Source of the DNA: Streptomyces sp. ML-6
GTDB lineage: Bacteria > Actinomycetota > Actinomycetes > Streptomycetales > Streptomycetaceae
Direction: 5' to 3'
Assembly: GCF_030116705.1 (NCBI RefSeq)
Contig: NZ_JAOTIK010000001.1
Span: 4,864,501-4,928,500 of the forward strand
DNA length: 64,000 bases
A program made the translations under genes and the position numbers. Of this stretch, positions 33,899 through 49,114 are shown one piece after another; position 1 is the first letter of the stretch; every line of letters begins with the position of its first letter. The notes beneath the pieces are model-generated. The model was not told the origin of the DNA and made no database searches. It saw only the letters and a program-made list of their open reading frames with translations.

Positions 33899-34088
33899 GT
33901 CGCCCCTGGGCGCGTCGCGCCCCGCGTGTCGCCCCCGCGTGTCGTCCCGCGTGTCGCGCCCCCCGGGTCATGCGCGCCGCGTCACGCGAGCGTCGTCCAG
34001 AGTTCACCGCCCGTCGCCCCGTCCGCCACCCTCCCCTCGGCGCGCCTCATTACGTTGGGCGGCCACAAGACCGAAGGCGAGGGCCGGC

Positions 34089-35054
34089 GTGCCGAAACTG
34101 TCCGTTGTCGTACCGCTCCACAATGTCGCCCCGTATGCCGACACCACGCTGGGCAGCCTGGCCCGCAACGCGGCCGGGGACGTGGAGTTCCTGCTGGTGG
34201 ACGACTGCTCCACGGACGAGACACCGGCCGTCATCGACCGCTGGGCCGAGCGGCTCCCGCAGGCCCGGGTCATCCGCCACGAGGTGAACGTCGGCATCGC
34301 CACCGCCCGCAACAGCGGCATCGAGGCGGCGGACGGGGAGTACCTCACCTTCCTCGACGGCGACGACTGGTACGCCCCCGGCCACCTGGACCGACTGCTG
34401 CGCGCCACCGAGGAGTTGGGCGTCGACTTCGTCCGCCACGACCACGTGCAGGCGACGGGCACCGGCCGGGTGGTCCGCCGCGCCCCGGCCCGGATCCGGG
34501 ACCGGGCGACCGACCCCCGGGAGGGCATCGCGTACCCGGGGATGGAGACGATGGTCGACTACCCCTTCGTCTGGGCCGGCCTCTACCACCGGCGGCTCTT
34601 CGAGGACGGGGCCATGCGCTTCGACCCGGCACTGCGCACCGCCGAGGACCGGCTGTGGACCTGGCGGCTGCACCTGCGGGCCCGCTCCTGCGCGGTCCTG
34701 GGGCTCCACGGGATCTTCTACCGGCGCGGGGTCACCACCTCGCTGACCCAGATCAAGGACTCCCGCCAGCTGGACTTCTTCCCCGCCTACGACACCCTGC
34801 TGGCGGAGCTGGCACAGGACCGGGACGCGGAACTCCTCCTGCCCAAGGCGGTCCGCACCTACTGCGCGCTGATCGCCTTCCACACCGAGAAGGCGGGGGA
34901 GTACGAAGCCGCCACCGCCCGCCGGCTGCGGCAGGAGTCGGCCGCCGCGCTGCACCGCATGCCCCCGCACGTGCTGGACCACATCCTGACGACGATGGAC
35001 ACGAAGCGCAGCACCTTGCTCCGACGCCTGCGTGACAAGCAGAAGGCGGCCTGA
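34089..35054 (+). CDS. family 2 glycosyltransferase (module A)
   Basis: This 321-residue GT-A enzyme has VPLHNVAPY at the start, LVDDCSTDETP for nucleotide binding, and the metal-binding DGDDW in LTFLDGDDWYAPG. The C-terminal third (LPKAVRTYCALIAFH to LRRLRD) is shared with the paralogue at 38932-39912, so the two are duplicates. The GTG start at 34089 has GAGGG upstream. The 50-residue upstream extension is a low-complexity read-through. The next gene, a polysialyltransferase family protein, follows by three bases. The pair probably adds and extends one sugar unit of a wall polymer. Confidence 0.88.
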   Translation: MPKLSVVVPLHNVAPYADTTLGSLARNAAGDVEFLLVDDCSTDETPAVIDRWAERLPQARVIRHEVNVGIATARNSGIEAADGEYLTFLDGDDWYAPGHLDRLLRATEELGVDFVRHDHVQATGTGRVVRRAPARIRDRATDPREGIAYPGMETMVDYPFVWAGLYHRRLFEDGAMRFDPALRTAEDRLWTWRLHLRARSCAVLGLHGIFYRRGVTTSLTQIKDSRQLDFFPAYDTLLAELAQDRDAELLLPKAVRTYCALIAFHTEKAGEYEAATARRLRQESAAALHRMPPHVLDHILTTMDTKRSTLLRRLRDKQKAA

Positions 35055-35057
35055 CCC

Positions 35058-36401
35058 ATGCCCACCCGCACCCAGATCTTCCAGGTCTCGACCCTGTACG
35101 GGGCCGCCACGCTCGCCGCCGCCCTCGACGCCGGCCAGTTCGGACCGCCGGCGGACAGCCGCCGCATCCTGCTGGTGTGCAACAACGCCCCGGTGCCGGA
35201 GACCGCCGCCGGCCCGGACGCGCTGCTCGGCTACGACCGCATCGCCGCCCGTTTCGACTCCGTCATCAGCTGGAACGAGACGATCCGCCCCTATCACCCC
35301 GGCGCCTGGGGGCCGCGCGCCGACGACGTCGTGCTGTGGCAGCGCGCGCTGCGGCTCGCCTGGGGGCTGGGCGAGGAACCCGTCGAACTGGTCCTGGAGT
35401 CCATCCAGGTCGACCCCGCCCGCGCACTCGCGGCGATCTTCTCCGAGAGCGCCCTGCACGTCTACGCGGACGGCCTCATGAGCTACGGCCCGACCCGCAC
35501 CCGGCTGCCCCAGTCGATCGGCTGCCGGGTCCGTCGGGTGCTCCACCTCGACCTGGTGCCCGGCCTGAAGCCCCTGCTGCTGTCCGAGTTCGACGTGGCG
35601 ACCGAACTCGTGCCGGAGGACGCCTTCCGCAAGGTCCTGGGCGAGATCGCCGCGTCGGCGGACGGCGACCGGCAGCTCGCCGAGGCCGTCGCGCAGGCTC
35701 CCACCGCCGTGCTCCTGGGCCAGTACCTGGCCGCCCTCGACATCCTGACCGTCGAGGAGGAGGAGGCCCTGCACATCCGCATGCTGCACGGGGCCGCCCG
35801 GGCCGGGCATACTTCCGTCCTCTTCAAGCCCCACCCCACCGCCCCCGTCCGCTACTCCGACGCCCTGGAGCGGGCCGCGGCCGAGGCCGGGGTCCGGCTC
35901 GTCACGACGGATACGCCCCTGCTGGCGGAGACCCTCTTCGAGAGGTGCGCGCCCACGCTCGTCGTCGGCTGCTTCTCGACCGCCATGCTCACCGCCGCCG
36001 TGTACTACGGCATCCCGGTCGCCCGGGTCGGCACCGGCCTGGTCCTGGACCGCATCGCCCCGTACGAGAACAGCAACCGCGTCCCGCTGACGATCGTCGA
36101 CCACTACGTGCCCGACCTGGAACGGCACGGCGGCGGGGAGGTGCCCGCCCTGCCCGCCACCGCGCCCGCGACCCTGGGACCGCTGGTCCGCACGGTCGGC
36201 TACTGCATGCAGTCCGAACTCCACCCGGAGCTGCGCGACGAGGCGGAGAGCTGGCTGCGGGAGCGGCTGGACGACAGCACCCGGCGCTACTTCAAGCGCC
36301 GCCGGCTCGGCAAGCTCTCCCTGCCCGGCGGCAGCACCCCGGGCGCCGCGGCCCGGCTGCGCAGCACGGTACGGCGCACCCGCAGCACCCTGCGGGTGTG
36401 A
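35058..36401 (+). CDS. polysialyltransferase family protein (module A)
   Basis: This 447-residue protein belongs to the alpha-2,8-polysialyltransferase (POLYST) family. Family-like segments are FQVSTLYGAATLAAALDAG, YADGLMSYGPTRTRLP, LHLDLVPGL, and the GT-B-type donor motif FKPHPTAP, then VVGCFSTAMLTA. Members transfer sialic acid or related CMP-sugars to build linear polymers. It directly follows module A GT2 and overlaps the acyltransferase gene by GTGA. A close paralogue lies at 37619-38935. The acceptor is unknown; a Kdn-containing polymer fits the nearby synthesis genes. Confidence 0.85.
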   Translation: MPTRTQIFQVSTLYGAATLAAALDAGQFGPPADSRRILLVCNNAPVPETAAGPDALLGYDRIAARFDSVISWNETIRPYHPGAWGPRADDVVLWQRALRLAWGLGEEPVELVLESIQVDPARALAAIFSESALHVYADGLMSYGPTRTRLPQSIGCRVRRVLHLDLVPGLKPLLLSEFDVATELVPEDAFRKVLGEIAASADGDRQLAEAVAQAPTAVLLGQYLAALDILTVEEEEALHIRMLHGAARAGHTSVLFKPHPTAPVRYSDALERAAAEAGVRLVTTDTPLLAETLFERCAPTLVVGCFSTAMLTAAVYYGIPVARVGTGLVLDRIAPYENSNRVPLTIVDHYVPDLERHGGGEVPALPATAPATLGPLVRTVGYCMQSELHPELRDEAESWLRERLDDSTRRYFKRRRLGKLSLPGGSTPGAAARLRSTVRRTRSTLRV

Positions 36402-37549
36402 CGGCCTCCCCGCCGGTCCCGCCGGCCTCCTCGCCCGTACCGCCGGTCCCGCCGGCCTCCTCGTCCGTACCGCCCGTACCGGTGGCGGCGGACCCGCGGG
36501 GCGGGCGCCCGCCCCGCGAGCACCGTTACGACATCGACCTGATCAGGCTGCTCTGCTCGGTCGGCGTGATCCTCTGCCACACGGGCTCCGCGTTCGTGAA
36601 CGCCGTCGGCCGCGAGCCCTCGGGCGGCGCGGGCACCTACTGGGCGGGGCTGGTGGCGGACTCGGCCGGCCGGTTCGCCGTGCCGCTGTTCTTCGCCATC
36701 GCCGGGTGGGTCGTCCTGGTCGGCGCCCCGCCGAAGGACGGCGTGCAACTGCGGCGGCGCATCGTGCGCATCGTGCTGCCGCTCGCCGTGTGGACCGCCC
36801 TTTACCTGGCATGGGGGCGACTGCGCGGCACCAACGACGACCCGGTCGGCGACCTGGCGCTCGACTCGCTCCTCGCCTCGGTGCGCCCCGCCTACCACCT
36901 CTGGTACCTGTACGCCTACATCCCCGTGGTCATGCTCCTGGCCTTCGTGGTGCTGGTGCGGTCGGGCAGGCGGCCGTGGGGGCTGGGCGCGGCGCTCCTG
37001 GTCCTGGCGGCGGCCCCGTCCCTCTTCGGCGACCTCTCCCGGGTCACGGGGGCGGAACTGCCGCGCTTCGGCTGGGGCTTCGGCCCGTACCAGCTGATTT
37101 ACGCGGTGCTGGGCGCGTTCCTGCTCGCGCTGCCCGCCGGGATCGCCGGGATCGCCGGGATCGCCGGGCGCAAGCGCCTGCTGTGGACCCTGCCGGCGCT
37201 GGTGGCGCTGACCGCGGTGATCGGCTACCAGCACCGGGTCCACTACGCGATCCCGTACGCCAGCGTGCTGGTGGCGCTGTTCAGCGCGGGGGTGCTGCTC
37301 TCCCTGCACCGGCTGCGGATTCCCGAGCGGCTGCGCCCCCGTCTGACCCGGCTGGCCGACGCGTCGTTCGGCGCCTACCTGGTCCACGTCCTGGTCCTCG
37401 GCGTGCTCACGGACCTGTTCGTCTCCGCCGACCTGGCACTGCTGCCGGCCGCCGCGCTGATGGTCGCGGTGACGGCGGCGACCACGCTGCTGTCGTTCGG
37501 CGCGGCGCTGCTGTGGGGGCGGCTGGGAATGAGCAGGGTGCTCGGCTGA
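36398..37549 (+). CDS. acyltransferase family 3 membrane protein
   Basis: This 383-residue protein begins with a Pro/Ser repeat (about 35 residues, encoded by the 30-bp tandem repeat at 36411-36470), then REHRYDIDLIRLLCSVGVIL. That is the start of an acyltransferase-3 domain with its catalytic His in LCHTGSAF. About ten membrane helices follow. A small GIAGIAGIAG repeat (nine-base units at 37139-37165) lies between two of them. The family O-acetylates sugars of surface polymers. GTG 36398 overlaps the previous stop (GTGA). A bidirectional terminator follows. Confidence 0.87.
   Translation: MTASPPVPPASSPVPPVPPASSSVPPVPVAADPRGGRPPREHRYDIDLIRLLCSVGVILCHTGSAFVNAVGREPSGGAGTYWAGLVADSAGRFAVPLFFAIAGWVVLVGAPPKDGVQLRRRIVRIVLPLAVWTALYLAWGRLRGTNDDPVGDLALDSLLASVRPAYHLWYLYAYIPVVMLLAFVVLVRSGRRPWGLGAALLVLAAAPSLFGDLSRVTGAELPRFGWGFGPYQLIYAVLGAFLLALPAGIAGIAGIAGRKRLLWTLPALVALTAVIGYQHRVHYAIPYASVLVALFSAGVLLSLHRLRIPERLRPRLTRLADASFGAYLVHVLVLGVLTDLFVSADLALLPAAALMVAVTAATTLLSFGAALLWGRLGMSRVLG
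36411..36470 (+). repeat. 30-bp tandem duplication in the acyltransferase N-terminus
   Basis: Two 30-bp units (36411-36440, 36441-36470) differ at one base. They encode PPVPPASSPV and PPVPPASSSV, a disordered extension before the first membrane helix. Unit-number changes preserve the frame. Confidence 0.8.
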
Positions 37550-37571
37550 AACCGGGCGACCCCCGGAACGC

Positions 37572-37607
37572 CGAACGGACGGGACCACAGGTGGTCCCGC
37601 CCGTTCG
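37572..37607. terminator. bidirectional terminator between the convergent halves of the glycopolymer cluster
   Basis: A 17-bp stem with one mismatch (37572-37588 and 37591-37607) has a two-base loop. It lies 23 bases after the acyltransferase stop and 12 bases after the polysialyltransferase stop (minus strand), so it serves both directions. Confidence 0.8.
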
Positions 37608-37618
37608 ACATTCCCGGC

Positions 37619-38935
37619 TCAGCGCAGCACGGCCCGCCCCAGCCGACGCGCCTTCCGGGCCGCCCGCCGCACCGCCGGATTGCGGGAGAGGGCGGCGAGC
37701 CGGCCGGGCAGACCGCCGGGGAGCCCGAGCGCCGTGAGCCTGCGCCGGGGGAACAGCCGCTGCTCGTCCGGAGTGACACCGTCCGTGAGGTACGCGGTGG
37801 CGGCCGGCCGCAGCCCCGGATGGATCCGCGGCTGCATCGTGAATCCGATCGCGGTCACCAGCCGGCCCGTGTCGCCCGGCGTCCGGGTGCGCCCCGTCTC
37901 CAGCTCGGGCAGCAGGGTGTGGGCGAGGACCGCCGGTACCCGGTTGCTGTTCTGATACGGCGTCAGCCGCGCCAGCAGCATCCCCGTACCGGTGCGGGCG
38001 GTGTCCAGACCGTACAACTGCCGTGCCGTGAACAGCGCGGTGGAGAAACAGCCCACGACGAGCACCGGCCGCAACCGTTCGTACAGCGTCTCCGCGAGCA
38101 CCGGCGCGTCGAGCACGGTGAACTCCACGCACAGCCGGGCGGCCTCGGCCTCCAGCAGCCGGGACCAGCGGGCGGGCGCCGTCGGATGGGGCTTGAAGAC
38201 GATCTGCCGGTGCCCGCGCGCGGCGGTCCCGCGCAGCATGCGCAGATGCAGCTCCTCTTCCTCCTCGACGGTGAGGATGTCCAGCGCCGAGAGGTACTGG
38301 CCGAGCAGGAGCGCCGGACTGTCGTACGGGACCTCCGGGGCGGGCGTGCGCGCCCCGATCTGTTCGAGTACCGCGCGGAAGGCGTCGTCGGGGATCGTCT
38401 CCGCCCCGACGCCGAACTCCGTGAGCAGCAGGGGGGCCAGGCCCGGCACCAGATCGAGGTGGAGGACCCGGCGCACCCGCGTACCGAGCAGCGGGTCGAG
38501 CTTGATCCGGGTGGGCCCGTAACTCATCAGCCCGTCCGCGTACACGTCCACGGCCGCGCCCGTGAAGATCCCGGTGACCGCGAGGGCCGGGTTGACCTGG
38601 ATGGACTCGACGGCGAACTCGACGTCGTCGTCGCCCAGTTCCCACAGCCTGCGCAGATGGCGCTCCCACAGCGGGACGTCCTCGGCCCGCGGCGACCAGC
38701 CCGACGGGTGGAACGGCTCGATCGCCGCGTTCCAGGAGAGCACCTCGTCGAACCGGTCCCGGATCGCCTCGAAGCCCGGCATCGCGTCGAGCGGCGGCGC
38801 GACCTCGGGGACGGCGGCGTTGTTGCTGATCAGCAGGACGCGCCGGTCCGCGGGCCGGATGAGGCCCGTGTCGACGGCCGCGGCCAGGGTGGCCGCCCCG
38901 TAGAGGGTGGACGCGCAGAGGATCTGAGTGGTCAT
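37619..38935 (-). CDS. polysialyltransferase family protein (module B)
   Basis: This 438-residue paralogue of the 35058-36401 product shares CASTLYGAATLAAAVDTG, YADGLMSYGPTRIKLDP, LHLDLVPGL, ALDILTVEEEEELHLRML, FKPHPTAPARW and VVGCFSTALFTA. Module B lies in the opposite orientation to module A. Its ATG overlaps the stop of the GT2 gene by ATGA, so the two are coupled as in module A. The pair probably makes a second linkage or a second polymer. Sequence differences are spread evenly, so the duplication is old. Confidence 0.86.
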   Translation of the reverse strand: MTTQILCASTLYGAATLAAAVDTGLIRPADRRVLLISNNAAVPEVAPPLDAMPGFEAIRDRFDEVLSWNAAIEPFHPSGWSPRAEDVPLWERHLRRLWELGDDDVEFAVESIQVNPALAVTGIFTGAAVDVYADGLMSYGPTRIKLDPLLGTRVRRVLHLDLVPGLAPLLLTEFGVGAETIPDDAFRAVLEQIGARTPAPEVPYDSPALLLGQYLSALDILTVEEEEELHLRMLRGTAARGHRQIVFKPHPTAPARWSRLLEAEAARLCVEFTVLDAPVLAETLYERLRPVLVVGCFSTALFTARQLYGLDTARTGTGMLLARLTPYQNSNRVPAVLAHTLLPELETGRTRTPGDTGRLVTAIGFTMQPRIHPGLRPAATAYLTDGVTPDEQRLFPRRRLTALGLPGGLPGRLAALSRNPAVRRAARKARRLGRAVLR

Positions 38936-39912
38936 GCGGCGGCCCTCGCAGCGGCGAAGGGGCGACGGCGCAGTCGTCGCAACCGGGCGGACCTGTCGGC
39001 GTCCATGGCGTCGATCGTCTCTTTCAGAATGTCCTGCGGCATGCGGTGCAGCGCTGCCGCGCCCCTGTCGAGAAGACCGCGGGCCACGGCCGGCTCGAAT
39101 TTCGAAATGGTCGCCACGTGGTGGGAGATCAGCGCGCAATAGGTGCGCACCGCTTTCGGCAGCAGCGCGTCGGCCTCCGGATCCCGCGCGGTCTCCTCCA
39201 GGACCTGGTCGAACGCGCGAATGAAATCGAGCTGCCGGATGTCACCGATCTGGGTCAATGACGAGGAGACCCCGCGCCGGTAGAAAACTCCGAGCAGACC
39301 GACCGCGGCGAACGATTCCGCCTCCCGGTGCAGCCGCCAGATCCACGGCCGGTCCTCGGCGGTGCGCAGCCCGTCCGTGAAGTGGATCAGCCCGCGCTCG
39401 ACCAGACGGCGGTGGTAGACGCCGGCCCAGGCGTACGGGTAGTCGACGGACGTGGTGCGCCCGACCGGGAGGATCGCGTCGCGCGGGTTCATCGGCACGG
39501 CGCGCAGGCCGTGCGGCACCCGGGCCACGGTGCGCGACCTGGCGTGGCACTGCACGTGGTCGGTCCGCAGGAAGTCGCACCCCAACCGGTCCATGGCGGC
39601 GACGAGTTCGGCGCAGTAGCCGGGTGCCAGCCAGTCGTCCCCGTCGAGGAACGTGACGTACTGGCCGCCCGCCGCGTCGAGACCGGTGTTGCGGGCGGTC
39701 GCCAGCCCCTGGTTCTGTTCGTGCCGCCGCAGCACCACCCCGGGGATCTCGTCCCGCGCCCGGAGCAGGACGTCCGAGGTCCCGTCGGTCGAGGCGTCGT
39801 CGACGAGGACGAACTCGAAGTCCTCGCGCGCGTTGGCGCGCAGACTTCGAAGGGTGTCGGGGGCATATGTCCGCACGTTGTAGAACGGCACGATGACGGA
39901 GAGCTTAACCAC
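38932..39912 (-). CDS. family 2 glycosyltransferase (module B)
   Basis: This 326-residue paralogue of the 34089-35054 product has VPFYNVRTYAPDTLRSLRAN, LVDDASTDGTSDV and VTFLDGDDWLAPGYC, with the DGDDW metal site. LPKAVRTYCALISHH is at the C-terminus. It is the first gene of the minus-strand pair, with its promoter in the 208-base divergent region. The ATG at 39912 has GGAGAGCTTAACC upstream. Its sugar donor and acceptor cannot be told from sequence. Confidence 0.88.
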   Translation of the reverse strand: MVKLSVIVPFYNVRTYAPDTLRSLRANAREDFEFVLVDDASTDGTSDVLLRARDEIPGVVLRRHEQNQGLATARNTGLDAAGGQYVTFLDGDDWLAPGYCAELVAAMDRLGCDFLRTDHVQCHARSRTVARVPHGLRAVPMNPRDAILPVGRTTSVDYPYAWAGVYHRRLVERGLIHFTDGLRTAEDRPWIWRLHREAESFAAVGLLGVFYRRGVSSSLTQIGDIRQLDFIRAFDQVLEETARDPEADALLPKAVRTYCALISHHVATISKFEPAVARGLLDRGAAALHRMPQDILKETIDAMDADRSARLRRLRRRPFAAARAAA

Positions 39913-40120
39913 TCGGTCACGCTAAGGGCGGTTTCGGCATTTGCCCTGTCCCGGAGAAGTACGGCGGATGAACGGCACATGCGGAAATGATGAACCGGCG
40001 TGAATGCGCGGGTTCTCCGGCGTGTGAAACGGGCCGATTAGCCAATCGTCGGCGGGCTGTTAACCAGCTGTTGCCATCGCGTTGGGCCGCGAATCGAAAT
40101 GCCTTCCTAAGTTCTGGGAC
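39913..40120. promoter_or_regulatory. divergent promoter region of the glycopolymer cluster
   Basis: This 208-base gap is AT-richer than its surroundings and drives genes both ways. GATTAGCCAATC at 40036-40047 is a near-perfect 12-bp palindrome, a candidate operator. TTGCCA at 40071-40076 could be a -35 box for the rightward gene, though the matching -10 box is unclear. Confidence in each element is low. Confidence 0.45.
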
Positions 40121-41470
40121 GTGCCCCCACGTACCGAAAAGACGACCGCCCTCCGGGTAGCCGTGCTCGCCGACTCCGACACCCGGTGGAAATGGGGCGC
40201 GCTCACCGCGCGCCGCCTCACCGCCGGTGCGTCCGGGGCGCCGGCGCAGCGCGTCGAGATCAGCGGACTGCTGCTGCGCGGCCGGGCCACCCCGACCCCG
40301 CGCCAGCTCGCCGAGGTCGGCGACGTCGGCATCGGACCCGACCGGGTGCGCGAGGTGACGGCCGTCGAGTTCCTGCACACCGTGCGCGACGAGGGGTACG
40401 ACGTGGTCGTCCTCGCCCTCGTCGGCGGTGGCGTCCAGGCCATGCTGCACGGCCTCGCCGCGCTGCGGCTGCCGACCCGGCCCGTCGTCGTCACCGGCTA
40501 CGTCGGCGTCGTCTACGAGAAGCTCGCCGACGGACTGCTGCTGCGGCACGGCGCGGACATCGTCCTCGCCAACTCCCGCCACGACGCCGAGCGTTTCCGC
40601 GCGGTGTACGAGGGAGTGGGCGCCGACGCCTCGGCCGTCACGGAGGCCGCCCTGCCGTTCCTCGGCGGTGAACCGCACCGCCCGCAGGAGGGCCGCGACA
40701 CCGTCGTCTTCGCCGCCCAGCCGTCCGTACCGGCCTCCCGCGCCGACCGCACGTACCTGCTGCGCAGGCTCGTCGAGCACGCCCGGCTGCACCCCGGCCG
40801 CGAGGTGGTGCTGAAACTGCGCTCCAAGCCCGGCGAGCACACCACGCACATCGAGGAGCTCCCCTACCAGCGGCTCGCCGAGAAGCTGCCCGGCGGAACA
40901 CCGCCCAACTTCCGCCTGGCGTACGGAAACATGGGCGAGGTCCTGGACCGCACCGACCTGCTGGTCACGGTCTCCTCGACCGCCGCGCTGGAGTCCCTGC
41001 ACCGGCGCATCCCGACCGCGGTCCTCACCGACCTCGGCGTCCGCGAGGCCCTCGGCAACCACCACTTCGTGGGCTCCGGCCTGCTCACTTCCTGGGACCA
41101 CCTCGACGGCGGCTTCCGTCCCGAGCCCGACCCGGAGTGGCTGGCCGGCCAGGGCGTCGCCGCCGACGGCACGTACGCCACCGCCTACGACCGCGCCCGC
41201 GCCCGTGTCGACGCGCTGCTTGCCGCCCCCCGGCTGCCCGACCTCGCCCCCTACTACACCCCGGCCACCGCGCCCGGCTACCTCCCCGGCATCCTCGCCC
41301 GCCACCACCTCGCCCCCGACGGCCACCCGCTGCCGGGCGCCGAACGGCCGCGCGAGACGGGCGGGGTGCGCGGCGCGGTCCGGGAGGCGGTCCGGGAGGC
41401 GGCGCGCGGGGCGTACCGGCAGGGCGTCCAGCGGGTCGCCCCGGTCATCCGGCGGATGGGCGAACTGTGA
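40121..41470 (+). CDS. DUF6716-type putative glycosyltransferase
   Basis: This protein of about 449 residues has an N-terminal LRVAVLADSDTRWKWG and a GT-B-like middle (VVVTGYVGVVYEKLADGLLL). A C-terminal half follows with LKLRSKPGEHT and LLVTVSSTAALESLHRRIPT, the donor-site region. It fits a family annotated as DUF6716 putative glycosyltransferase, usually found in Streptomyces next to neuA/neuB-type genes. The GTG at 40121 was chosen because the conserved part begins right after it; no strong RBS is visible. It overlaps the following frame by GTGA at 41467. Confidence 0.78.
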   Translation: MPPRTEKTTALRVAVLADSDTRWKWGALTARRLTAGASGAPAQRVEISGLLLRGRATPTPRQLAEVGDVGIGPDRVREVTAVEFLHTVRDEGYDVVVLALVGGGVQAMLHGLAALRLPTRPVVVTGYVGVVYEKLADGLLLRHGADIVLANSRHDAERFRAVYEGVGADASAVTEAALPFLGGEPHRPQEGRDTVVFAAQPSVPASRADRTYLLRRLVEHARLHPGREVVLKLRSKPGEHTTHIEELPYQRLAEKLPGGTPPNFRLAYGNMGEVLDRTDLLVTVSSTAALESLHRRIPTAVLTDLGVREALGNHHFVGSGLLTSWDHLDGGFRPEPDPEWLAGQGVAADGTYATAYDRARARVDALLAAPRLPDLAPYYTPATAPGYLPGILARHHLAPDGHPLPGAERPRETGGVRGAVREAVREAARGAYRQGVQRVAPVIRRMGEL

Positions 41471-41592
41471 CCCCGCAGCCCACCACTTCGCCAACTCCGT
41501 CCCCGAACCCGCTGCCGGCCCCGAACCGGCCTCCGGCCCCGACTCCCGACCCGACTCCGACTCCCGACCCGACCTCGACTCCAGGAGCAGCG

Positions 41593-42819
41593 ATGACGCC
41601 GCCCACCGTGCTCGCCGTGATCCCCGCCCGCGGCGGATCCAAGGGCGTACCGGCCAAGAACCTCGCCCAGGTCGGCGGCGTACCGCTGGTCGCCCGCGCC
41701 GTACGCGCCTGCCTGGCCTCCCACGAGGTCACGGACGTCGTCGTGACGACCGACGACGCGGCCATCGCCGACGCGGCCCGCGCGGCGGGCGACACCACGG
41801 CCACCCCCGAGCGGCTGCACATCGTCCAGCGCCCCGCAGCCATCGCCGGGGACAGGTCCAGCAGCGAGGACGCGGTGCTGCACGCCCTGGACGCGTACGA
41901 GGCGATGCGCGACCGGAAGGCCGACGTGGTGCTGCTCGTCCAGTGCACCAGCCCCTTCGTCGTACGGGAGGACATCGACGGCGTCGCCGTCGCGGTCGCC
42001 CGCGACGGCGCCGACACGGCGGTCACGGTCGCCCCCTTCCACGGCTTCCTCTGGCGCGACGGCAGCGCGGTCGAGGAGGGCAACTACGGCGTCAACCACG
42101 ACAAGTCCATACGCCAGATGCGTCAGGACCGCCCCGAGGACCTCCTCGAGACCGGCACCGCGTACGCCATGGACGTCGAGGGCTTCCGCACCCACCGCCA
42201 CCGCTTCTTCGGCCACACCGCACTGGTGCGCACCGACGCCGCCCGGGTCCTGGAGGTCGACGACCCGCACGACCTGGCCCGCGCCCGCGCCCTCGCCCCG
42301 CTGCTCGACCCGTCGCCGCTGCCCACCCTCGACGACATCGACGCCGTCGTGCTGGACTTCGACGGCACCCAGACCGACGACCGGGTCCTCATCGACGCCG
42401 ACGGACGCGAGACCGTCGCCGTCCACCGCGGCGACGGCCTCGGCATCGCCGCACTGCGCAGGGCCGGGCTGCCGCTGCTGATCCTGTCCACCGAGCAGAA
42501 CCCGGTCGTCGCGGCCCGCGCCCACAAGCTCCGCATCCCGGTCCTGCACGGCATCGACCGCAAGGACCTCGCGCTCAAGCAGTGGTGCGACGAACAGTCC
42601 ATCGCCCCCGAACGCGTCCTCTACGTCGGCAACGACGTCAACGACCTGCCCTGCTTCGCGCTCGCCGGCTGGCCCGTCGCCGTCGCGAGCGCCCACGACT
42701 CGGTACGGGCGGCCGCACGCGCCGTCACGACCGTCCCCGGCGGCTTCGGCGCCATCCGCGAGATCGCGGCCTGGCTGCTCGGCCCCACCCTCACGGCCAC
42801 CGTCAAGTCCCCCAAGTGA
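41593..42819 (+). CDS. neuA: CMP-acylneuraminate/Kdn cytidylyltransferase fused to a KdsC-like HAD phosphatase
   Basis: This protein of about 408 residues joins two enzymes. Residues 1-225 are a CMP-sialate synthetase (IPARGGSKGVPAKNLAQVGG, LVQCTSPFVVREDI, GTAYAMDVEGF). Residues 245-400 are a HAD phosphatase of the KdsC/Kdn-9-phosphatase type (VVLDFDGTQTDDRV, GNDVNDLPCFALAG). The ATG at 41593 has AGGAG five bases upstream. An upstream in-frame GTG at 41467 (overlapping the previous stop) would add a Pro/Thr/Asp-repeat tail and is also possible. It probably dephosphorylates a 9-phosphate and activates the free sugar as a CMP derivative. The fused order fits Kdn formation from Kdn-9-phosphate. 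Confidence 0.88.
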   Translation: MTPPTVLAVIPARGGSKGVPAKNLAQVGGVPLVARAVRACLASHEVTDVVVTTDDAAIADAARAAGDTTATPERLHIVQRPAAIAGDRSSSEDAVLHALDAYEAMRDRKADVVLLVQCTSPFVVREDIDGVAVAVARDGADTAVTVAPFHGFLWRDGSAVEEGNYGVNHDKSIRQMRQDRPEDLLETGTAYAMDVEGFRTHRHRFFGHTALVRTDAARVLEVDDPHDLARARALAPLLDPSPLPTLDDIDAVVLDFDGTQTDDRVLIDADGRETVAVHRGDGLGIAALRRAGLPLLILSTEQNPVVAARAHKLRIPVLHGIDRKDLALKQWCDEQSIAPERVLYVGNDVNDLPCFALAGWPVAVASAHDSVRAAARAVTTVPGGFGAIREIAAWLLGPTLTATVKSPK

Positions 42820-42986
42820 CCCCGGGCCCCCAAGCCCACCACGTCACCCGAGCTCACCAAGTCCCCCAATTCCCCCAAGCCATCCGGGCCAACCGAGCTC
42901 ACCCGAGCTCATCCGCGCCCACCAGGGCCCCCAAGGCCACCAGGGCCCCAAGCCCCCAACTCACCCGAGCTAAGGAAACACACCTC
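42820..42986 (+). other. C-rich, G-poor leader between the neuA-HAD and neuB genes
   Basis: By hand count the 167 bases hold 85 C, 31 G, 39 A and 12 T. It repeats the word CACCCGAGCT three times (near 42847, 42901 and 42962, allowing one variation) and runs of CCCCCAA. The opposite strand is G-rich. There is no coding potential. The composition resembles a Rho utilisation site. RBS AAGGA of neuB lies at its right end. Confidence 0.6.
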
Positions 42987-43919
42987 ATGAGCACCTCCCG
43001 CCTGCGCACCCTCGGCACCCGCACCGCCGGCCCCGGCCGCCCCGTCTACATCACCGGCGAGATCGGCATCAACCACAACGGCGACCTCGACAACGCCCTC
43101 GCCCTGATCGACGTCGCCGCCGAGGCGGGCTGCGACGCGGTCAAGTTCCAGAAGCGCACCCCGGAGATCTGCACCCCGCGCGACCAGTGGGACATCGAGC
43201 GCGACACCCCCTGGGGCCGGATGACGTACATCGACTACCGCCACCGCGTCGAGTTCGGCGAGGACGAGTACCGGGCCATCTCCGAGCACTGCGCCCGGCG
43301 CGGCATCGACTGGTTCGCCTCCCCGTGGGACACCGAGGCCGTCGCCTTCCTGGAGAAGTTCGACGTCCCCGCCCACAAGGTCGCCTCGGCCTCGCTCACC
43401 GACGACGAGCTGCTGCGCGCGCTGCGCGCCACCGGCCGCACGGTCATCCTCTCCACCGGCATGTCCACCCCGAAGCAGATCCGCCACGCGGTGGAGGTCC
43501 TCGGTTCGGACAACATCCTGCTCTGCCACGCCACTTCGACGTACCCGGCCAAGGCCGAGGAGCTGAACCTGCGGGTCATCAACACCCTCCAGCAGGAGTA
43601 CCCCAACGTCCCGATCGGCTACAGCGGCCACGAGACCGGCCTCCAGACCACCCTGGCCGCCGTCGCCCTCGGCGCCACGTTCGTCGAGCGCCACATCACC
43701 CTGGACCGTGCCATGTGGGGCTCCGACCAGGCCGCCTCCGTCGAGCCGCAGGGCCTCAGCCGCCTGGTCCGCGACATCCGCACCATCGAGGCCTCGCTCG
43801 GCGACGGCGTCAAGAAGGTGTACGAGTCCGAGCTCGGCCCGATGAAGAAGCTTCGCCGGGTCACGGGCGTCGTCGCCGAGAGCGAGGCGGCCCCGGCCGC
43901 CGAGCCGGTCGCGGTCTGA
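42987..43919 (+). CDS. neuB: N-acetylneuraminate/Kdn-9-phosphate synthase family protein, no antifreeze-like domain
   Basis: This 310-residue protein is a NeuB TIM barrel: YITGEIGINHNGDLDNALAL, CDAVKFQKRTPEIC, SPWDTEAVAFLEKF, VILSTGMSTPKQI and GYSGHETGLQTT. The last conserved block reads ERHITLDRAMWGSDQAAS. The usual C-terminal SAF (antifreeze-like) domain of about 60 residues is absent; the protein ends in a short Ala/Glu tail. It condenses phosphoenolpyruvate with ManNAc, Man-6-P or a related sugar. The neighbouring phosphatase fusion and lack of NeuC favour Man-6-P giving Kdn-9-P. ATG 42987 has AAGGA upstream. Confidence 0.87.
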   Translation: MSTSRLRTLGTRTAGPGRPVYITGEIGINHNGDLDNALALIDVAAEAGCDAVKFQKRTPEICTPRDQWDIERDTPWGRMTYIDYRHRVEFGEDEYRAISEHCARRGIDWFASPWDTEAVAFLEKFDVPAHKVASASLTDDELLRALRATGRTVILSTGMSTPKQIRHAVEVLGSDNILLCHATSTYPAKAEELNLRVINTLQQEYPNVPIGYSGHETGLQTTLAAVALGATFVERHITLDRAMWGSDQAASVEPQGLSRLVRDIRTIEASLGDGVKKVYESELGPMKKLRRVTGVVAESEAAPAAEPVAV

Positions 43920-43930
43920 CGGGCCGACCG

Positions 43931-44986
43931 GTGAACCTCGCCTTCGTCGAGAGCCCGGTCCAGCTCCTGAACGTCCTGGAGTGGGCCTACGCAGAGGGAG
44001 GCGACGACCGGGTCCTGACGGACATCACGGTCGTCGTCCTCCCCCCGGTCGACCCGATGTCGCGCGGCCAGCTGCGCCGGATGGCGGAGCTGGCCCGCGA
44101 CGAGGGCATCCACGTCCGCTGGCAGGAGGCGCGCGGCGGTGCGAGCGCTCCCCTGAAGAGCCTCCGCGACCTGGCCGGTCTCGTCCGCAGGGCCCGCCAC
44201 GTCGTCATCGGCGACCCGTTCTCCCGGTATGTCCAGCTCCTGCTCACCATGGTCCGGGCCCGCCGCCTCACGGTGGTCGACGACGGCACCGCCACCATGG
44301 AGTTCGTCGCCCAACTGGAGCGCGGCGAACGCCTGGTGCGCTGGCACCGCAAGGGCGGCTCGGGCCCGCGCGAACTGGTCCTGGCCCCGGTCACGGCCCG
44401 CGCCCGCAGCCGCTTCGTCCCGTCCGGCACCCGCACGGTCGAGGTCTTCACGGCGATGCCGGTCGAGGCTCCGCCCGGCGTCACCCTCACCCCCAACACC
44501 TTCGCCTGGACCCGCGCCCGCTTCGGCCCGCCGAACCTCACCAGGGGCGCGGACCTGGTCGGCACCTCCCTCGTCGAGACGGGCGTGGTCGACCGGGACC
44601 AGTACCTGGAGGCCGTAGCCGCCCTGTCCCGCACCCACGGGGCCACCCGCTACTTCGCCCACCGCCGCGAGTCCACCGACAAGCTCCACGCCCTGGAGGC
44701 CCTCACCGGCCTGGAGATCGTCCGCCCCGACCTTCCCCTGGAACTCATTGCCCGCCGCGGCCCCATCGGCCGTACGGTCCTCAGCTTCCCCTCCACCGTC
44801 GTCCACACCCTGCCCCTCGCCCTGGCCGGCACCGAGGCGAAGGTCGCGGTCTGCGACATCGCCCCGGAATGGCTCCGCGACACGGCCTCCCCCCGCGCCC
44901 AGGGCTTCCTGAGCGGCGTCACGGCGACCGCCCGCGACGTACAGCGCCTGGCCCCGTGGCGGGCCACGGCGGTGACGGAGGCGTAG
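43931..44986 (+). CDS. GT52-like putative sialyl/Kdn transferase
   Basis: This 351-residue protein opens with NLAFVESPVQLLNVLEWAYA. In the middle it has HVVIGDPFSRYVQLLLTMVR and LTVVDDGTATMEFV. The DDGT motif after a short conserved block recalls the GT52 family of bacterial sialyltransferases. A C-terminal RPDLPLELIARRGPIGRTVL block follows. It starts 11 bases after neuB, so it should be the last gene of that operon. Assignment as a CMP-sugar transferase is inferred from the motif and context; a fold comparison would decide it. Confidence 0.6.
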   Translation: MNLAFVESPVQLLNVLEWAYAEGGDDRVLTDITVVVLPPVDPMSRGQLRRMAELARDEGIHVRWQEARGGASAPLKSLRDLAGLVRRARHVVIGDPFSRYVQLLLTMVRARRLTVVDDGTATMEFVAQLERGERLVRWHRKGGSGPRELVLAPVTARARSRFVPSGTRTVEVFTAMPVEAPPGVTLTPNTFAWTRARFGPPNLTRGADLVGTSLVETGVVDRDQYLEAVAALSRTHGATRYFAHRRESTDKLHALEALTGLEIVRPDLPLELIARRGPIGRTVLSFPSTVVHTLPLALAGTEAKVAVCDIAPEWLRDTASPRAQGFLSGVTATARDVQRLAPWRATAVTEA

Positions 44987-45125
44987 GAACCATTCCCGCT
45001 GCCGCTGTCCGAGAGGAGTACCCGGCAGCCACCGGATCGTCCGGACAACTGGACGGCCTCTGCGTAGAGTTCTGGAGATTCCCTCTCCCGGGAATCTTCT
45101 TCTTCGTGGAACTGGGGTGGGGATC

Positions 45126-46133
45126 ATGCGAGGACGCTTGTGCCGTCGAAGAGGGCTCGGAGTGGTGGCCGTCGCCGCGCTGAGCCTCGTCGCGGGAGGG
45201 GCGCTGGCACCACAGGCGACGGCGGCGGACCCGGCGGCGGTGCGGGCCGGCAGTGAAGCCGGGGCGAACGGGGAGGCCGGCGTCCGGTGGAGTCCGGCGG
45301 GGATCTCGCCGAAACCCTCCGGCCCGGGCCGCACGACCGGTCTGCCGCAGCAGTTCGGACAGGGGCAGGCAGTCAAGGGGCGTTGGCAGTTCGAGGAGAT
45401 GACCACCGGTGCGCCTGCGAGCACCCCGGACTCCGCGGCACAGTCCGGCCCGATGAACCTGCACGGGGGCGTGCAGCTCGGACCGGGGTGGATCGACGCC
45501 AGTGGTCTTCGGCTGAACGGCGTCGATTCCTACGCCGAGCTTCCGGCCGTGTCGGTCGACACGAGTTCGAGTTTCACGGTGACCGCATGGGTTCAGGCGT
45601 CCGAGCTGTCGGACCAGCCCATGACCGTGATCAACGCTGCGGGAAACAAGCGCAGCGCCTTCGCCCTGCGCTTCCTGTCGACTCCCGATGATTCCGAAGG
45701 CTTCGGACACTGGGAACTGACGCTGGCCCACGCGGACCGCCCAGGGGCTGCGACCAGGCAGGCCGGCAGCAGTGAGTTCTACGACGTCCGTGAGTGGAAC
45801 CACCTGACGGTCGTCTACGACAGCATCGCCGAGCAGGCCCGGCTCTACGTCAACGGCCTGCTCCAGGAATTCAGGTGCCCCGACGACGACGGAGACGGCG
45901 AGCCGGACGACAGCACCTGCCAGGACGAGGTGGCCTGGGCGGACGACGTGCGGATGTTCAGGGCCGACGGGCCCCTGCAGGTGGGGCGTGCGATGTCGGA
46001 CACGGCGGGTGAGTACTTCGCCGGAACGATCGACGACGTCTGGGTCTTCCAGGGCGCGCTGAACGAAAGCCAGGTCAGGTGGCTCTCCTCTCACTACTTC
46101 GACCTTCCGACCGAGGTTCCGGCCGGCAGCTGA
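45126..46133 (+). CDS. secreted LamG-like (concanavalin-type) protein
   Basis: This 335-residue protein has a signal peptide (CRRRGLGVVAVAALSLVAGG, cleavage after ATA). A single LamG jelly-roll domain runs from about residue 95 to the end: LNGVDSYAELPAVSVDTSSS, NAAGNKRSAFALRFLS, WNHLTVVYDSIAEQARLYVN and GTIDDVWVFQGALNESQVRW. The FRCPDDDGDGEPDDSTCQDE loop has two cysteines and acidic residues suited to calcium. No catalytic domain follows. Such domains often sit at the N-terminus of long RHS proteins, and an RHS fragment lies just downstream, so this may be a stand-alone remnant. Confidence 0.8.
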   Translation: MRGRLCRRRGLGVVAVAALSLVAGGALAPQATAADPAAVRAGSEAGANGEAGVRWSPAGISPKPSGPGRTTGLPQQFGQGQAVKGRWQFEEMTTGAPASTPDSAAQSGPMNLHGGVQLGPGWIDASGLRLNGVDSYAELPAVSVDTSSSFTVTAWVQASELSDQPMTVINAAGNKRSAFALRFLSTPDDSEGFGHWELTLAHADRPGAATRQAGSSEFYDVREWNHLTVVYDSIAEQARLYVNGLLQEFRCPDDDGDGEPDDSTCQDEVAWADDVRMFRADGPLQVGRAMSDTAGEYFAGTIDDVWVFQGALNESQVRWLSSHYFDLPTEVPAGS

Positions 46134-46154
46134 GGCCACCGCCCTGCCGACCCG

Positions 46155-46191
46155 AAGGCCCTCTCCGCGCCCCTGTCGCGGTGAGGGCCTT
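46155..46191. terminator. terminator after the LamG gene
   Basis: A 15-bp stem with one T-T mismatch (46155-46169 and 46177-46191) lies 21 bases beyond the LamG stop. It is homologous to the terminator at 49055-49087 of the inhibitor gene. Confidence 0.75.
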
Positions 46192-46232
46192 CGGCGCGTC
46201 CTGATCGTCCGCCGTGGGCCGGAGGCGTCGGG

Positions 46233-46251
46233 TCAGACGCAGTTGACCCAC
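46233..46251 (-). repeat. relic of the 3' end of a peptidase-inhibitor gene
   Basis: TCAGACGCAGTTGACCCAC is identical to 49115-49133, which encodes the last residues (WVNCV, stop) of the inhibitor at 49115-49498. Together with the related terminator upstream, this marks a duplicated inhibitor gene whose body is gone. Confidence 0.75.
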
Positions 46252-46686
46252 AGCTATTCCGCGGCAGGCTCGCCGCCCGGAGGCGGGTCCGGCTACGCCT
46301 ACGACGATGAGACGCTCCGGCTGATCTCGGTCTCCGGCGAGGGGATGCCGTCGAGCGTCTCCTACAGCCTGACGGGCAAGCCCTTGGAGTATGCAATGGG
46401 CTTGCCCGGCAGCACCAAGAAGACCCGGGTGACCAACGCGTACGAGTGGGGCACCCAGCGGCTGGCGACCTCACGTGTCGACCGCCAGGACCAGCTGGGC
46501 GTCGATCGCAGCGTCACTTACCGGTACGACGAGGTCGGCAACGTGCTGTCGATGGCGGACGTCTCCCGCAGCGGCACCGACAACCAGTGTTTCGTCTACG
46601 ACTGCCTCGGTCGGGTCACGGAGGCATGGGCCCAGCCCGTCACCATCTGCGCGGGCGCAGGCCGGCGGGCAGCGGGGTACCGCTGA
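46252..46686 (+). pseudogene. fragment of an RHS/YD-repeat protein
   Basis: About 140 residues in one frame show YD/RHS repeats: YAYDDETLRLISVSGEG, YRYDEVGNVLSMADVS and CFVYDCLGRVTEAWAQP. Full RHS proteins are over 1500 residues and end with a core and a toxin domain; none of that is here. The left edge coincides with the inhibitor-gene relic, and the right edge with the GntR gene. It is a broken piece with no start of its own. Confidence 0.8.
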
Positions 46687-47066
46687 CGTTCGAGGTCATC
46701 GCCGAGACCCTGCGCGAGCGCATCCGCTCCGGCGGGCTGCGGCCGGGTGACGCGCTGCCGACGCAGGCCGTGTTGATGCGGGAGTTCGGGGCGTCGAGCC
46801 TGACCGTGCAGAAGGCCATGGTCCTGCTGAAGCAGGAGGGGTGGGCGGTTTCCCGGCCCGGCAAGGGTGCCTTTGTCGCCCACCGCGACCACGCCGCAGG
46901 CGACGCTGATGACCTCGACGGTCCCGAGGCGACCGCGCCCGCCACCGGGACGGCGGCCCGCGTCGAGGCGCTGGAACGTGCGCTGGCCGAGGCTGTTCAG
47001 CAGATTGCCGACCTCCGTGGCCGTGTCGAGGCCCTGGAGTCAGGCGGCGGCGAGCGGGGCCGCTGA
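46626..47066 (+). CDS. GntR-type regulator with altered 5' end
   Basis: The conserved part begins at VPLTFEVIAETLRERIRSGG and continues with the GntR recognition helix ASSLTVQKAMVLLKQEGWAV, then a short linker and a coiled coil RVEALERALAEAVQQIADLR. Normal homologues start at that first Val, but its codon here is GTA, not GTG. The nearest in-frame start is ATG 46626, in the RHS fragment, giving 17 extra residues. Either the gene is translated from there or it is inactive. It is about 146 residues from that start. Confidence 0.6.
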   Translation: MGPARHHLRGRRPAGSGVPLTFEVIAETLRERIRSGGLRPGDALPTQAVLMREFGASSLTVQKAMVLLKQEGWAVSRPGKGAFVAHRDHAAGDADDLDGPEATAPATGTAARVEALERALAEAVQQIADLRGRVEALESGGGERGR

Positions 47067-47729
47067 CCCGCCGTACCGCGTGGCCCAGGACCGGACAAGC
47101 GTCGCCCGGGGGCGTGCGTTCAGATTTTCTCTACGAGGTTCAAGGCGGGCACCGCCCGCCTGAGCGGGCCGCCGTCGCCGACAAGGCCCACCGTCTACTC
47201 CCGTGATCAGGCGCTACTGGAGGCACCGAGCCGACGCGGCAGCCGGGCTGCGGGAGCGGCAGCCAACCAGATCACCGGGATGACCGGAGCCGGACTCCTG
47301 GCGGAGCAAGCTATCGCCTGCGACCGTCCTACGGCTGGATCGCAGGCAAGGGCCGACCAGGGGGCCGACCCTCAATATCCCTCGCCGGGCTTACCGAGGG
47401 CGGCGGCCGGCGTCGCCTCCGGCGGGGAGCGAGCTCCCGACCGCCCGTGACAGACCGAACCCTCCCGCCCCGGTCCCCGCGCCGCCAGACCGGGCGACGC
47501 ATCAGCCCGGCCGTACGCTGCCTCTCCCGCTCGGGCCCGATCCCGCCGGAAGAAGCCGACCCTGCGCCGCCCCGGCCGGTTGCCGCTGGTTTGCGACACC
47601 GCCGCCGCATCAGGATGAGGGGGGACCATTGGGGCGTGCGACGCCGGAGTGGCTGCGATCGCGGCAACGGCACACGACCTGAACTACGAAGCCGCGCTCT
47701 TGCCCCCCGCGCCATATAGCATCGGTGCT
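47067..47729. other. 663-base region without a recognisable gene
   Basis: Open frames here lack RBS, domains and normal codon bias. No transposase remnant was recognised. Its right end contains the operator-like palindrome before the toxin start. It is probably debris of past insertions. Confidence 0.5.
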
Positions 47730-47731
47730 AT
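47716..47731 (+). promoter_or_regulatory. operator-like palindrome at the toxin start
   Basis: ATAGCATCGGTGCTAT has 6-bp arms around four bases and overlaps the toxin ATG at 47730. This is the usual place for autoregulation by a toxin-antitoxin complex. Confidence 0.6.
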
Positions 47732-48113
47732 GGACGGCGGGCGCTACTCGATCGAGATCGAGCCGTAGGCAAGGCTGTGGCTGGAGAACATTCCCGCCCA
47801 TCACTACAAACAGGCCGAACGCGTCGCCGACCTGCTCGCCGAACAGCCCACCACACTCGACGAACCGCACTCCCGCCATCTGGGCGGCAAGGTCCGCGAG
47901 CTGCGCTTCCGTCTCGGCGATGCCCATCAGCGGATCATCTACTGGCTGGTGCCCGGCCGACGTGTCGTGCTGCTCACCGTGTTCCACAAAACCAAGATGC
48001 GCGAGCAGGCCGAAGTGGACCGCGCCCACGCCGCACAGCGATTGTGCGAGGCAGAGCATGAAGCCGCCGCCGAGCACGACCTCTACAGTCGCAACCTCAA
48101 GGAGAACCGATGA
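47730..48113 (+). pseudogene. RelE/HigB-like toxin gene interrupted by an amber codon
   Basis: The frame starts MDGGRYSIEIEP and meets TAG at 47766-47768 (codon 13). It then runs on without interruption for about 114 residues to a TGA at 48111-48113. The rest matches a RelE/HigB-type toxin (ARLWLENIPAHHYKQAERVA, LGGKVRELRFRLGDAHQRII, LLTVFHKTKMREQAE). Homologues appear to have a Glu codon where TAG stands, consistent with one GAG to TAG change. No in-frame ATG or GTG follows close to the stop. Its end overlaps the antitoxin ATG (ATGA), so the operon layout is preserved. Confidence 0.85.
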
Positions 48114-48448
48114 ACCACAGCGAATGGAGGACCCGTCGCCACCGCCAGCTGCTGGGCGAACACCTGGACGCCGACCCCGAGTACGACCGGGTCTACGAAG
48201 AGGCCGGCCTCGCCATGACACTGGGCAAGGCCGTCTACAACCGGCGTAAGCAGCTGGGCCTGAGCGAGGCCGACCTCGCCGAGCGCATGCACGTCGACGT
48301 CGATGACATCGAAGGCATCGAGACGGCCACCGAGCTGCCGCCCATCGCGGTCATCATGCGCCTGGCCCGCGCCCTGGACCTCACGGTCGACGTGCACCTC
48401 GCCGGCGGAGACGAGCCCACCGTCACCATCGTCGCCCCAGCGGCCTGA
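48110..48448 (+). CDS. XRE-type antitoxin of the broken toxin
   Basis: This 112-residue protein has a helix-turn-helix (KAVYNRRKQLGLSEADLAER, then MHVDVDDIEGIE) and a C-terminal dimerisation segment DLTVDVHLAGGD. It begins with ATGA overlap on the toxin frame and has AAGGAGAA upstream. HigA-like antitoxins neutralise the RelE-type toxin and repress the operon. With the toxin truncated, this one is an orphan and might still repress or protect against related toxins. Confidence 0.8.
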   Translation: MNHSEWRTRRHRQLLGEHLDADPEYDRVYEEAGLAMTLGKAVYNRRKQLGLSEADLAERMHVDVDDIEGIETATELPPIAVIMRLARALDLTVDVHLAGGDEPTVTIVAPAA

Positions 48449-48462
48449 AGCGGGGAGGAACC

Positions 48463-48699
48463 ATGCAGGACCCGCCTTCCGCGCTCGCCCGTGAGCTCGG
48501 GCAACTCGTCCACGACCGGCGCATCGAGCTCGGGCTGTCCCAGGCCGAGCTGGCCGAGCGGTGCGGGATGAAACAGCCGCAGATCTCCCGCTTCGAAGGC
48601 GGCGGGACCGTGCCCACACTTCCCCTCCTGCGCCGCCTGGCTCAGGCTCTCGGCGCCGACCTGACCATCAGCCTCACCCTGCACGGCAAAGCCGCTTGA
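48463..48699 (+). CDS. small XRE/HTH protein, HigA-like
   Basis: This 78-residue protein is almost entirely a helix-turn-helix domain (LVHDRRIELGLSQAELAERC, then MKQPQISRFEGG). The end is LTISLTLHGKAA, as in HigA-type antitoxins. It starts 14 bases after the previous antitoxin, with GGGGAGG upstream, so it is in the same operon. A second HTH next to an antitoxin is unusual. Its toxin, if any, is not beside it. Confidence 0.75.
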   Translation: MQDPPSALARELGQLVHDRRIELGLSQAELAERCGMKQPQISRFEGGGTVPTLPLLRRLAQALGADLTISLTLHGKAA

Positions 48700-48943: not shown

Positions 48944-49054
48944 GGCGAACTCCGTTCTGAGACAACACCCAGACGGTACCCCCGCCACGCCGCCCCGGAT
49001 CAGCCGAACAACGATCGACCGGGGTGGTCAGGGGGCCCGGCCTGCCGACCCGAA

Positions 49055-49087
49055 GGCCCCCTCCGCGAGCCTGTCGCGGAGGGGGCC
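49055..49087 (-). terminator. terminator of the inhibitor gene
   Basis: A perfect 13-bp stem (49055-49067 and 49075-49087) has a 7-base loop, 28 bases past the stop of the I36 inhibitor gene. Confidence 0.85.
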
Positions 49088-49114
49088 CGATGCCCTGACG
49101 GCGGATGCATCGGA

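Follow-up and report, generated by a model that had tools for sequence, protein, structure and literature searches.

Teichulosonic acid containing 3-deoxy-D-glycero-D-galacto-non-2-ulosonic acid (Kdn) has been reported as a main wall polymer of Streptomyces, according to the parts of the literature that were available. The same parts assign SCO4873-SCO4882 of S. coelicolor to teichulosonic acid under PhoP control, give SLI_5146-SLI_5156 as the counterpart genes of S. lividans, and describe the S. coelicolor polymer as galactose-Kdn of up to 7 repeats, often bearing N-acetylglucosamine or methyl groups. Here we analysed a window of 64,000 nucleotides from Streptomyces sp. ML-6, the whole stretch of DNA under study, in which nine open-frame genes at 34089-44986 are arranged in the order GT2a, POLYSTa, acyltransferase, POLYSTb (- strand), GT2b (- strand), DUF6716, NeuA-HAD, NeuB and P0009, where GT2 denotes family 2 glycosyltransferases and POLYST denotes proteins of the polysialyltransferase family. 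Judging by its gene content, the kind of locus appears to be already known, because NeuB and NeuA adjoin GT2 and POLYST genes as in the Kdn-teichulosonic-acid cluster of Streptomyces. We consider it probable, by roughly two chances in three, that a Kdn-containing wall teichulosonic acid is the product of this locus; its chain would be built by GT2-POLYST pairs located in a variable cassette, next to a constant core supplying cytidine monophosphate-activated Kdn (CMP-Kdn). New in this work are the pairing that forms the candidate polymerase, the cassette, and the changes that POLYSTb has repeatedly undergone where a second module adjoins it. The literature that we found, with subscription papers mostly outside its scope, describes neither the pairing nor the residue losses, nor the enzymes polymerising Kdn teichulosonic acid.

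The window core resembles the S. coelicolor cluster by the fit of gene order and annotation lists. In those lists, SCO4877, SCO4879 and SCO4882 are hypothetical, SCO4878 is a glycosyltransferase, SCO4880 is a putative transferase or sialic acid synthase, and SCO4881 belongs to polysaccharide biosynthesis. In addition, the window holds a further GT2-POLYST pair accompanied by an acyltransferase gene. At the level of the enzymes, POLYST shares with the bacterial polysialyltransferases of GT38 (Mannheimia PST, PDB 5wc6 and 5wcn) an acidic base before Gly, the His of an HP motif, a Ser-Thr pair and, by the POLYSTa model, the GT-B fold. However, the identity is only 11-13%, and the present proteins are paired with a GT2, the donor is probably CMP-Kdn, and the product is probably alternating rather than a sialic homopolymer.

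In meningococcal serogroups W and Y, the capsule polymerase holds a hexosyl- and a sialyltransferase within one protein. The pairs described here would resemble these polymerases in that a hexosyltransferase and a sialyltransferase act together on a chain of alternating residues, and two natural GT2-POLYST fusions strengthen the likeness, but they belong to other glycosyltransferase families and are normally two genes in Streptomyces. The Streptomyces TUA (Utr) loci, which are targets of umbrella toxins, are likewise surface glycopolymer loci that combine a few core genes with species-variable transferases and acetyltransferases, but they differ in their sugars and enzymes (ManNAc3NAcA-GalNAc), and the terms sialic, Kdn and nonulosonic are absent from the main text of that report (PMC13274773).

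A paired candidate polymerase

On the + strand, GT2a (34089..35054; PF00535, 4.4e-32) is followed by POLYSTa (35058..36401; PF07388, 3.5e-29), and on the - strand GT2b (38932..39912; PF00535, 7.3e-33) overlaps its partner POLYSTb (37619..38935; PF07388, 5.5e-27) by 4 bp. Within the window, the two GT2 proteins are 54% identical and the two POLYST proteins 53%. The catalytic base, the HP histidine and the Ser-Thr pair are in place in both POLYSTs (D138, H259, S307 and T308 in POLYSTa; D134, H250, S298 and T299 in POLYSTb, which retains 67 of 68 conserved columns), the roles of these residues being those given for polysialyltransferases in the available part of PMC5517516. The original prediction had named an unrelated fold of the POLYST-like proteins as grounds for abandoning it; the model, made for POLYSTa, has a GT-B fold and is nearest to a solved bacterial polysialyltransferase (MhPST).

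Across the loci compared, a GT2 gene lies directly upstream of POLYST on the same strand in 172 of 180 cases, a count that includes near-duplicate loci from one genome; seven of the other eight POLYST genes lie at the locus edge and one is an orphan (L012; the L numbers are our handles for these loci). The partners are also specific to each other. When 142 pairs were typed, the POLYSTs of types a, b and c (20, 114 and 6, respectively) each stood with their own GT2 type, GT2a going with the POLYSTa type in relatives, and apart from two outliers there were no mixed pairs. In 78 loci, the POLYSTb and GT2b distances correlated at 0.77 after the core genes had been regressed out, a value that 0 of 2000 permutations reached. 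A search restricted to long proteins gave three matches, two of which are natural fusions with the GT2 first and a linker-joined POLYST after it, namely an 816-amino-acid protein of S. similanensis, 64% identical to GT2a, and an 831-amino-acid protein from a metagenome. We consider, from gene order and sequence, that GT2 and POLYST are one unit. This unit would act as a two-step polymerase, in which GT2 adds a hexose and POLYST adds Kdn, alternately. More distant POLYST-GT2 pairs that fall outside the three types lie beside a neu core in L010, L112 and L150.

Two modules side by side

As far as their residues tell, both modules of the window appear to be active. On the one hand, the two POLYST modules of the original prediction are present with their catalytic residues intact; on the other hand, the two distinct polymers or linkages that it drew from them remain unproven. 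What became of POLYSTb in related loci bears on this point.

Module a may adjoin the core, in one of several orientations, or lie away from it. In the 26 loci where it is adjacent (for L051 the adjacency is inferred from an acyltransferase gene at the locus edge), POLYSTb has lost the base or His in 12 and any of base, His and Ser-Thr in 15, while all are kept in 11; at least one full motif is missing in 20 of the 26. GT2b kept its VDD, DGDDW and TAED motifs in every one of these 26 loci. Beside a type c pair, the catalytic residues of POLYSTb are all kept in 10 of 11 loci, the exception being L147, a long branch whose placement is unsure. Where a second module was not seen beside it, POLYSTb kept all three catalytic features in every one of 91 distinct sequences. 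These comprise 61 without module a in the fetched locus, on which alone they were judged and which leaves a copy elsewhere in the genome possible, 22 from short loci with surroundings unseen, and 8 with module a elsewhere. In these last eight genomes, module a lies more than 1 Mb away on the same contig (five genomes) or on a different contig (three), and POLYSTb is intact in all of them.

On a POLYSTb tree, which was built quickly and with the plain rows thinned by random draw, the intact gene of the window is sister to the degenerate genes of L122 and L126 (support 100), and the intact gene of L123 is sister to the degenerate ones of L120, L142 and L080 (support 100). These sister pairs suggest that module a arrived first and that the residues were lost after. 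The minimum number of changes is three on the POLYSTb tree and four on the core tree (91 loci). The core tree offers four independent contrasts. When any adjacent second module was counted, all four pointed in the same direction in the majority of draws (median p 0.125); when the count was restricted to module a, three of four did so, one showed no difference and none was opposite (median p 0.25). The loci being related, the link between POLYSTb loss and adjacency is strong by count but not significant by independent events.

The frequent loss of catalytic residues from the first POLYST (POLYSTb) in relatives with adjacent modules points to substitution or a changed role, and we regard replacement as at least as likely as two distinct polymers. 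Tentatively, and with somewhat less than even confidence, we suggest that next to module a POLYSTb repeatedly became a catalytically impaired yet selected pseudo-polysialyltransferase that keeps GT2b working in an obligate complex, while POLYSTa supplies the Kdn transfer. The window might then represent the state just before this switch, in a cassette exchanged in the manner of capsule-type genes. Independently of this suggestion, the window has two pairs whose catalytic residues are in place, a state that its close relatives appear to have left through loss of the catalytic residues of POLYSTb.

Three other explanations have to be considered for the two pairs. A separate Kdn polymer or linkage could come from each pair in the strain of the window, as the original prediction held. 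The residues kept by both pairs and the identities of 54% between the two GT2s and 53% between the two POLYSTs would allow this, and the intact POLYSTb of the eight genomes with module a away from the core is what is expected if both are used. We consider this rather unlikely in view of the motif and residue losses beside an adjacent module a; the lineage that is sister to the POLYSTb of the window is among those affected. Alternatively, both pairs could work on one polymer, one making the main chain and the other a branch or linkage unit. The motifs of GT2b are kept even beside a degenerate POLYSTb, so that hexose transfer still seems needed; nevertheless, PF07388 is found in 141 of 150 Streptomyces genomes with at least two copies in 45 and only one in 96, and one pair therefore seems enough for the essentials, although weak copies may be missed in these counts. 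We consider this alternative unlikely.

It is also doubtful, at about one chance in five, that POLYSTb is simply dying after its replacement by module a, with the loss of catalytic residues as neutral decay. The lost positions (base, His, Ser/Thr) differ between lineages, and POLYSTb is broken in L035, where module a was not seen, and in L130, beside a type c pair, both of which fit decay. Purifying selection on the remaining genes argues otherwise. The median ratio of nonsynonymous to synonymous substitution rates (dN/dS), calculated by NG86, which is biased in GC-rich genes, was 0.32 for degenerate POLYSTb (29 close pairs) and equally 0.32 for intact POLYSTb (154 pairs), whereas simulated neutral evolution yielded 1.1-1.5; over a wider distance range it was 0.50 and 0.45, respectively. 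The GC content at third codon positions was 0.934 in 20 degenerate POLYSTb genes. Stops were absent from these 20, partly by construction since pieces below 85% coverage had been excluded (10 pieces, including the broken POLYSTb of L035 and L130). We rejected the idea that all degenerate POLYSTb are dead, since 11 of the 26 keep all catalytic residues; five of these 11, of a degenerate griseus type, lost other conserved columns. In L035:6022-7373 and L130:11220-12212, POLYSTb is split over two frames or partly missing, which may be sequencing error or real decay.

The likely sugar

The core is able to suggest which sugar is polymerised. NeuA-HAD (41467..42819, + strand; the true start may be ATG 41593) joins a CMP-nonulosonate synthetase (about 41608-42291; CTP_transf_3, 8e-18) to a C0-type HAD phosphatase (about 42334-42801), and its motifs are retained in 101 of 101 relatives. 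The nearest PDB entries are 9t4z, named PpNeuA, for the NeuA part (4.8e-20) and 3mmz for the HAD part (1e-89). The NeuB-family synthase (42987..43919, + strand; PF03102, 3e-82 in a search on the frame from 42966) has no SAF match, and the two SAF proteins of the genome are located elsewhere. YSGH and GSDQ occur in 98 of 98 sequences of this NeuB group, and the three PDB relatives shown carry SDH at the first motif.

The host genome, a 9.1 Mb Streptomyces genome with an estimated completeness of 99.99%, has one NeuB match, that of the locus. Family matches were taken from Pfam, and substrate-level models were judged by NCBIfam cut-offs. The absence of NeuC, on which the original prediction had relied for Kdn, extends to the whole genome: the sole Epimerase_2 protein is WecB (293.7 bits, cut-off 210; 52 bits against the NeuC model, cut-off 236), and a profile search of the genome gave no match to NanE. 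This absence supports Kdn, a mannose-based nonulosonate, over N-acetylneuraminic acid (Neu5Ac). The genome also encodes the catalytic domain of a type I mannose-6-phosphate isomerase, and the C-terminal isomerase family PF01238 has no match in it. In the pathway that we propose, NeuB would condense a mannose-derived sugar, probably mannose-6-phosphate, with phosphoenolpyruvate, the HAD domain would take off the phosphate, and the NeuA domain of the same chain would make CMP-Kdn. We consider this a nonulosonate wall-polymer locus with Kdn as the likely sugar, Kdn being our best inference and not a result.

DUF6716 (40121..41470, + strand; PF20471, 4.4e-110; start codon uncertain, 40082 or 40121) is a putative glycosyltransferase, and P0009 (43916..44986, + strand; start probably GTG 43931) is a GT-B transferase with a polysialyltransferase-like predicted fold. 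Our guess is that these two are constant transferases which probably add the initial or the final residues. P0009 matched no Pfam or NCBIfam family at E 0.01, and a search with its alignment gave no PDB sequence at E 10. In the comparison of its modelled fold, the solved bacterial polysialyltransferase of GT38 is nearest, chains 5wcn and 5wc6 ranking first; D122-D123-G124, H249 and S293-T294 are invariant in 30 aligned rows. The earlier label of P0009 as GT52-like does not hold, as it has no GT52 profile match and we rejected this family by sequence; that GT52 chains were not seen among the best 50 rows of the fold comparison excludes nothing.

A variable cassette between constant genes

We retrieved 80 named Streptomyces loci through NeuA-HAD and scored gene presence only where the locus had room on the side concerned. 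With upstream room, DUF6716 was present in 73 of 73 loci and GT2b with POLYSTb in 72 of 73; with downstream room, NeuB and P0009 were present in 76 of 76. These counts indicate that POLYSTb-GT2b-DUF6716-NeuA/HAD-NeuB-P0009 is a widely shared core and that GT2a-POLYSTa-acyltransferase is an addition. The co-occurrence of the genes at the locus is not chance. A protein search with POLYSTa found matches in 36 of 37 Streptomyces genomes and in none of the 24 genomes searched outside the genus, all from its order or class. In L108 (Streptomyces sp. XM4193), DUF6716, NeuA-HAD, NeuB and P0009 are kept and the GT2-POLYST pair was not found in the fetched locus.

The segment GT2a-POLYSTa-acyltransferase-POLYSTb-GT2b (33990..39912) appears to be a variable, probably exchangeable cassette between constant flanks, since the nearest species switches at its ends in both protein identity and DNA alignment. 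TetR, DUF6716, NeuB and P0009 are 94-98% identical to those of L033 or L032, in whose fetched loci module a is absent; for the other genes the identity to L033/L032 is 89% (LysE), 90% (monooxygenase) and 87-88% (NeuA). For GT2b, however, the identity is 74% with these two but 81% with L122 and L126; the latter loci have module a in common with the window (GT2a 85-86%, POLYSTa 81-83%). The DNA of L033 can be aligned up to 33898, and for L122 and L126 the alignment begins at 33990. The flanks are thus nearest to S. gelaticus-type genomes and both pairs to other species, indicating that a block of about 5.9 kb, from about 33990 to about 39912, has a history differing from that of its flanks.

Within the cassette, the membrane acyltransferase (36398..37549, + strand; Acyl_transf_3, PF01757, 5.4e-35) probably serves O-acylation of the polymer, to go by its family. 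Of 28 type-a modules, 18 have a gene of this kind no more than 5 kb away, and a locus edge is near for some of the remaining 10. The slot beside POLYSTb holds acyltransferases, Methyltransf_24, TPR-pyruvyltransferase, YfhO and GT29-like proteins in relatives. The pairs, the acyltransferase and other decorating genes would accordingly make up a species-variable cassette next to a constant CMP-Kdn core.

Several findings count against parts of this picture. POLYSTb of the window is 66-67% identical to L033/L032 and 68-70% to L122/L126, which is little difference, and the acyltransferase is 76% identical to that of L042 and 67-68% to those of L122/L126. The cassette is therefore not one clean import, and its history may most simply be an import with a later change of the acyltransferase. 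A loose, weak PHO-box pattern had four matches in the window against 3.18 expected, and none inside 34089-44986. As for the sugar, the HAD part scored 71.2 bits against the Kdn-9-phosphate phosphatase model NF058599 (cut-off 180) and 95 bits against the KdsC model (cut-off 208), and HAD and NeuB stayed under every curated cut-off able to name a substrate. The comparison with curated models thus named no substrate, and of the view of the original prediction that the fused phosphatase points to Kdn, the fusion itself is confirmed while the link to Kdn is inference only.

Another nonulosonate, such as Neu5Ac, pseudaminic or legionaminic acid, is very unlikely: NeuA scored best with the pseudaminate model PseF among the synthetase models (93 bits, cut-off 205.7) and NeuB with the N-acetylneuraminate synthase model TIGR03569 (NeuB_NnaA; 254.9 bits, cut-off 399.65), both under their cut-offs, but NeuC and NanE are missing as described, Pfam found no pseudaminic or legionaminic precursor families among the nine locus genes, the rest of the genome being left unsearched for them, and for the walls of S. 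coelicolor the available literature gives Kdn as the sugar.

Further observations concern the cassette slot. Weak matches to the GT29 sialyltransferase profile, all to the same part of the profile, occur in L129:12288-13559, L033:1999-3573 and L053:1446-3275 (E 3e-4 to 2e-3), in genes that adjoin or lie near TPR-pyruvyltransferase genes. We did not accept GT29 for these genes, as the matches are under the Pfam cut-off and a PDB search matched mainly TPR-like repeats; the assignment remains a lead. P0253 combines a POLYST with TPR, and its C-terminal part, as judged by eye, resembles the GT29-like genes. YfhO membrane proteins are encoded at L036:3609-6092, in the cassette slot, and at L113:10008-12623, beside a stand-alone module a, and may be export or modification genes. 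The core tree places L043 within the degenerate griseus-type loci, yet its POLYSTb is intact and module a is absent from the locus, which suggests back-exchange of the cassette. POLYSTa and POLYSTb are convergent and form long imperfect inverted repeats (72-80%); gene conversion between them is unsupported, since POLYSTb is no closer to the POLYSTa of its own genome than to others.

Upstream of the locus lie genes for a methylmalonyl-CoA mutase, a Uma2 protein, LysE, an FAD monooxygenase and a TetR regulator, and downstream a LamG protein and, about 6 kb further, an M20 peptidase. The region between P0009 and the peptidase gene (44986-51049, about 6 kb) contains the LamG-domain protein and, by the look of the translation, RHS-like fragments; the gap is about 1 kb in L032 and L033, so that these 6 kb look like an insertion. 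The gene inventory of the original prediction, with two GT2-POLYST pairs, an acyltransferase, DUF6716, NeuA-HAD and a SAF-less NeuB, is borne out throughout by open frames and Pfam matches.

Conclusion

In this study, the fixed pairing of GT2 and POLYST and their natural fusions name a concrete two-part candidate for the polymerase. The variable cassette would account at the genetic level for surface diversity in Streptomyces, for which toxins against surface polymers are known. If our reading of POLYSTb is true, it would present the uncommon situation of a glycosyltransferase that repeatedly lost catalytic residues while still under selection and became a partner protein.

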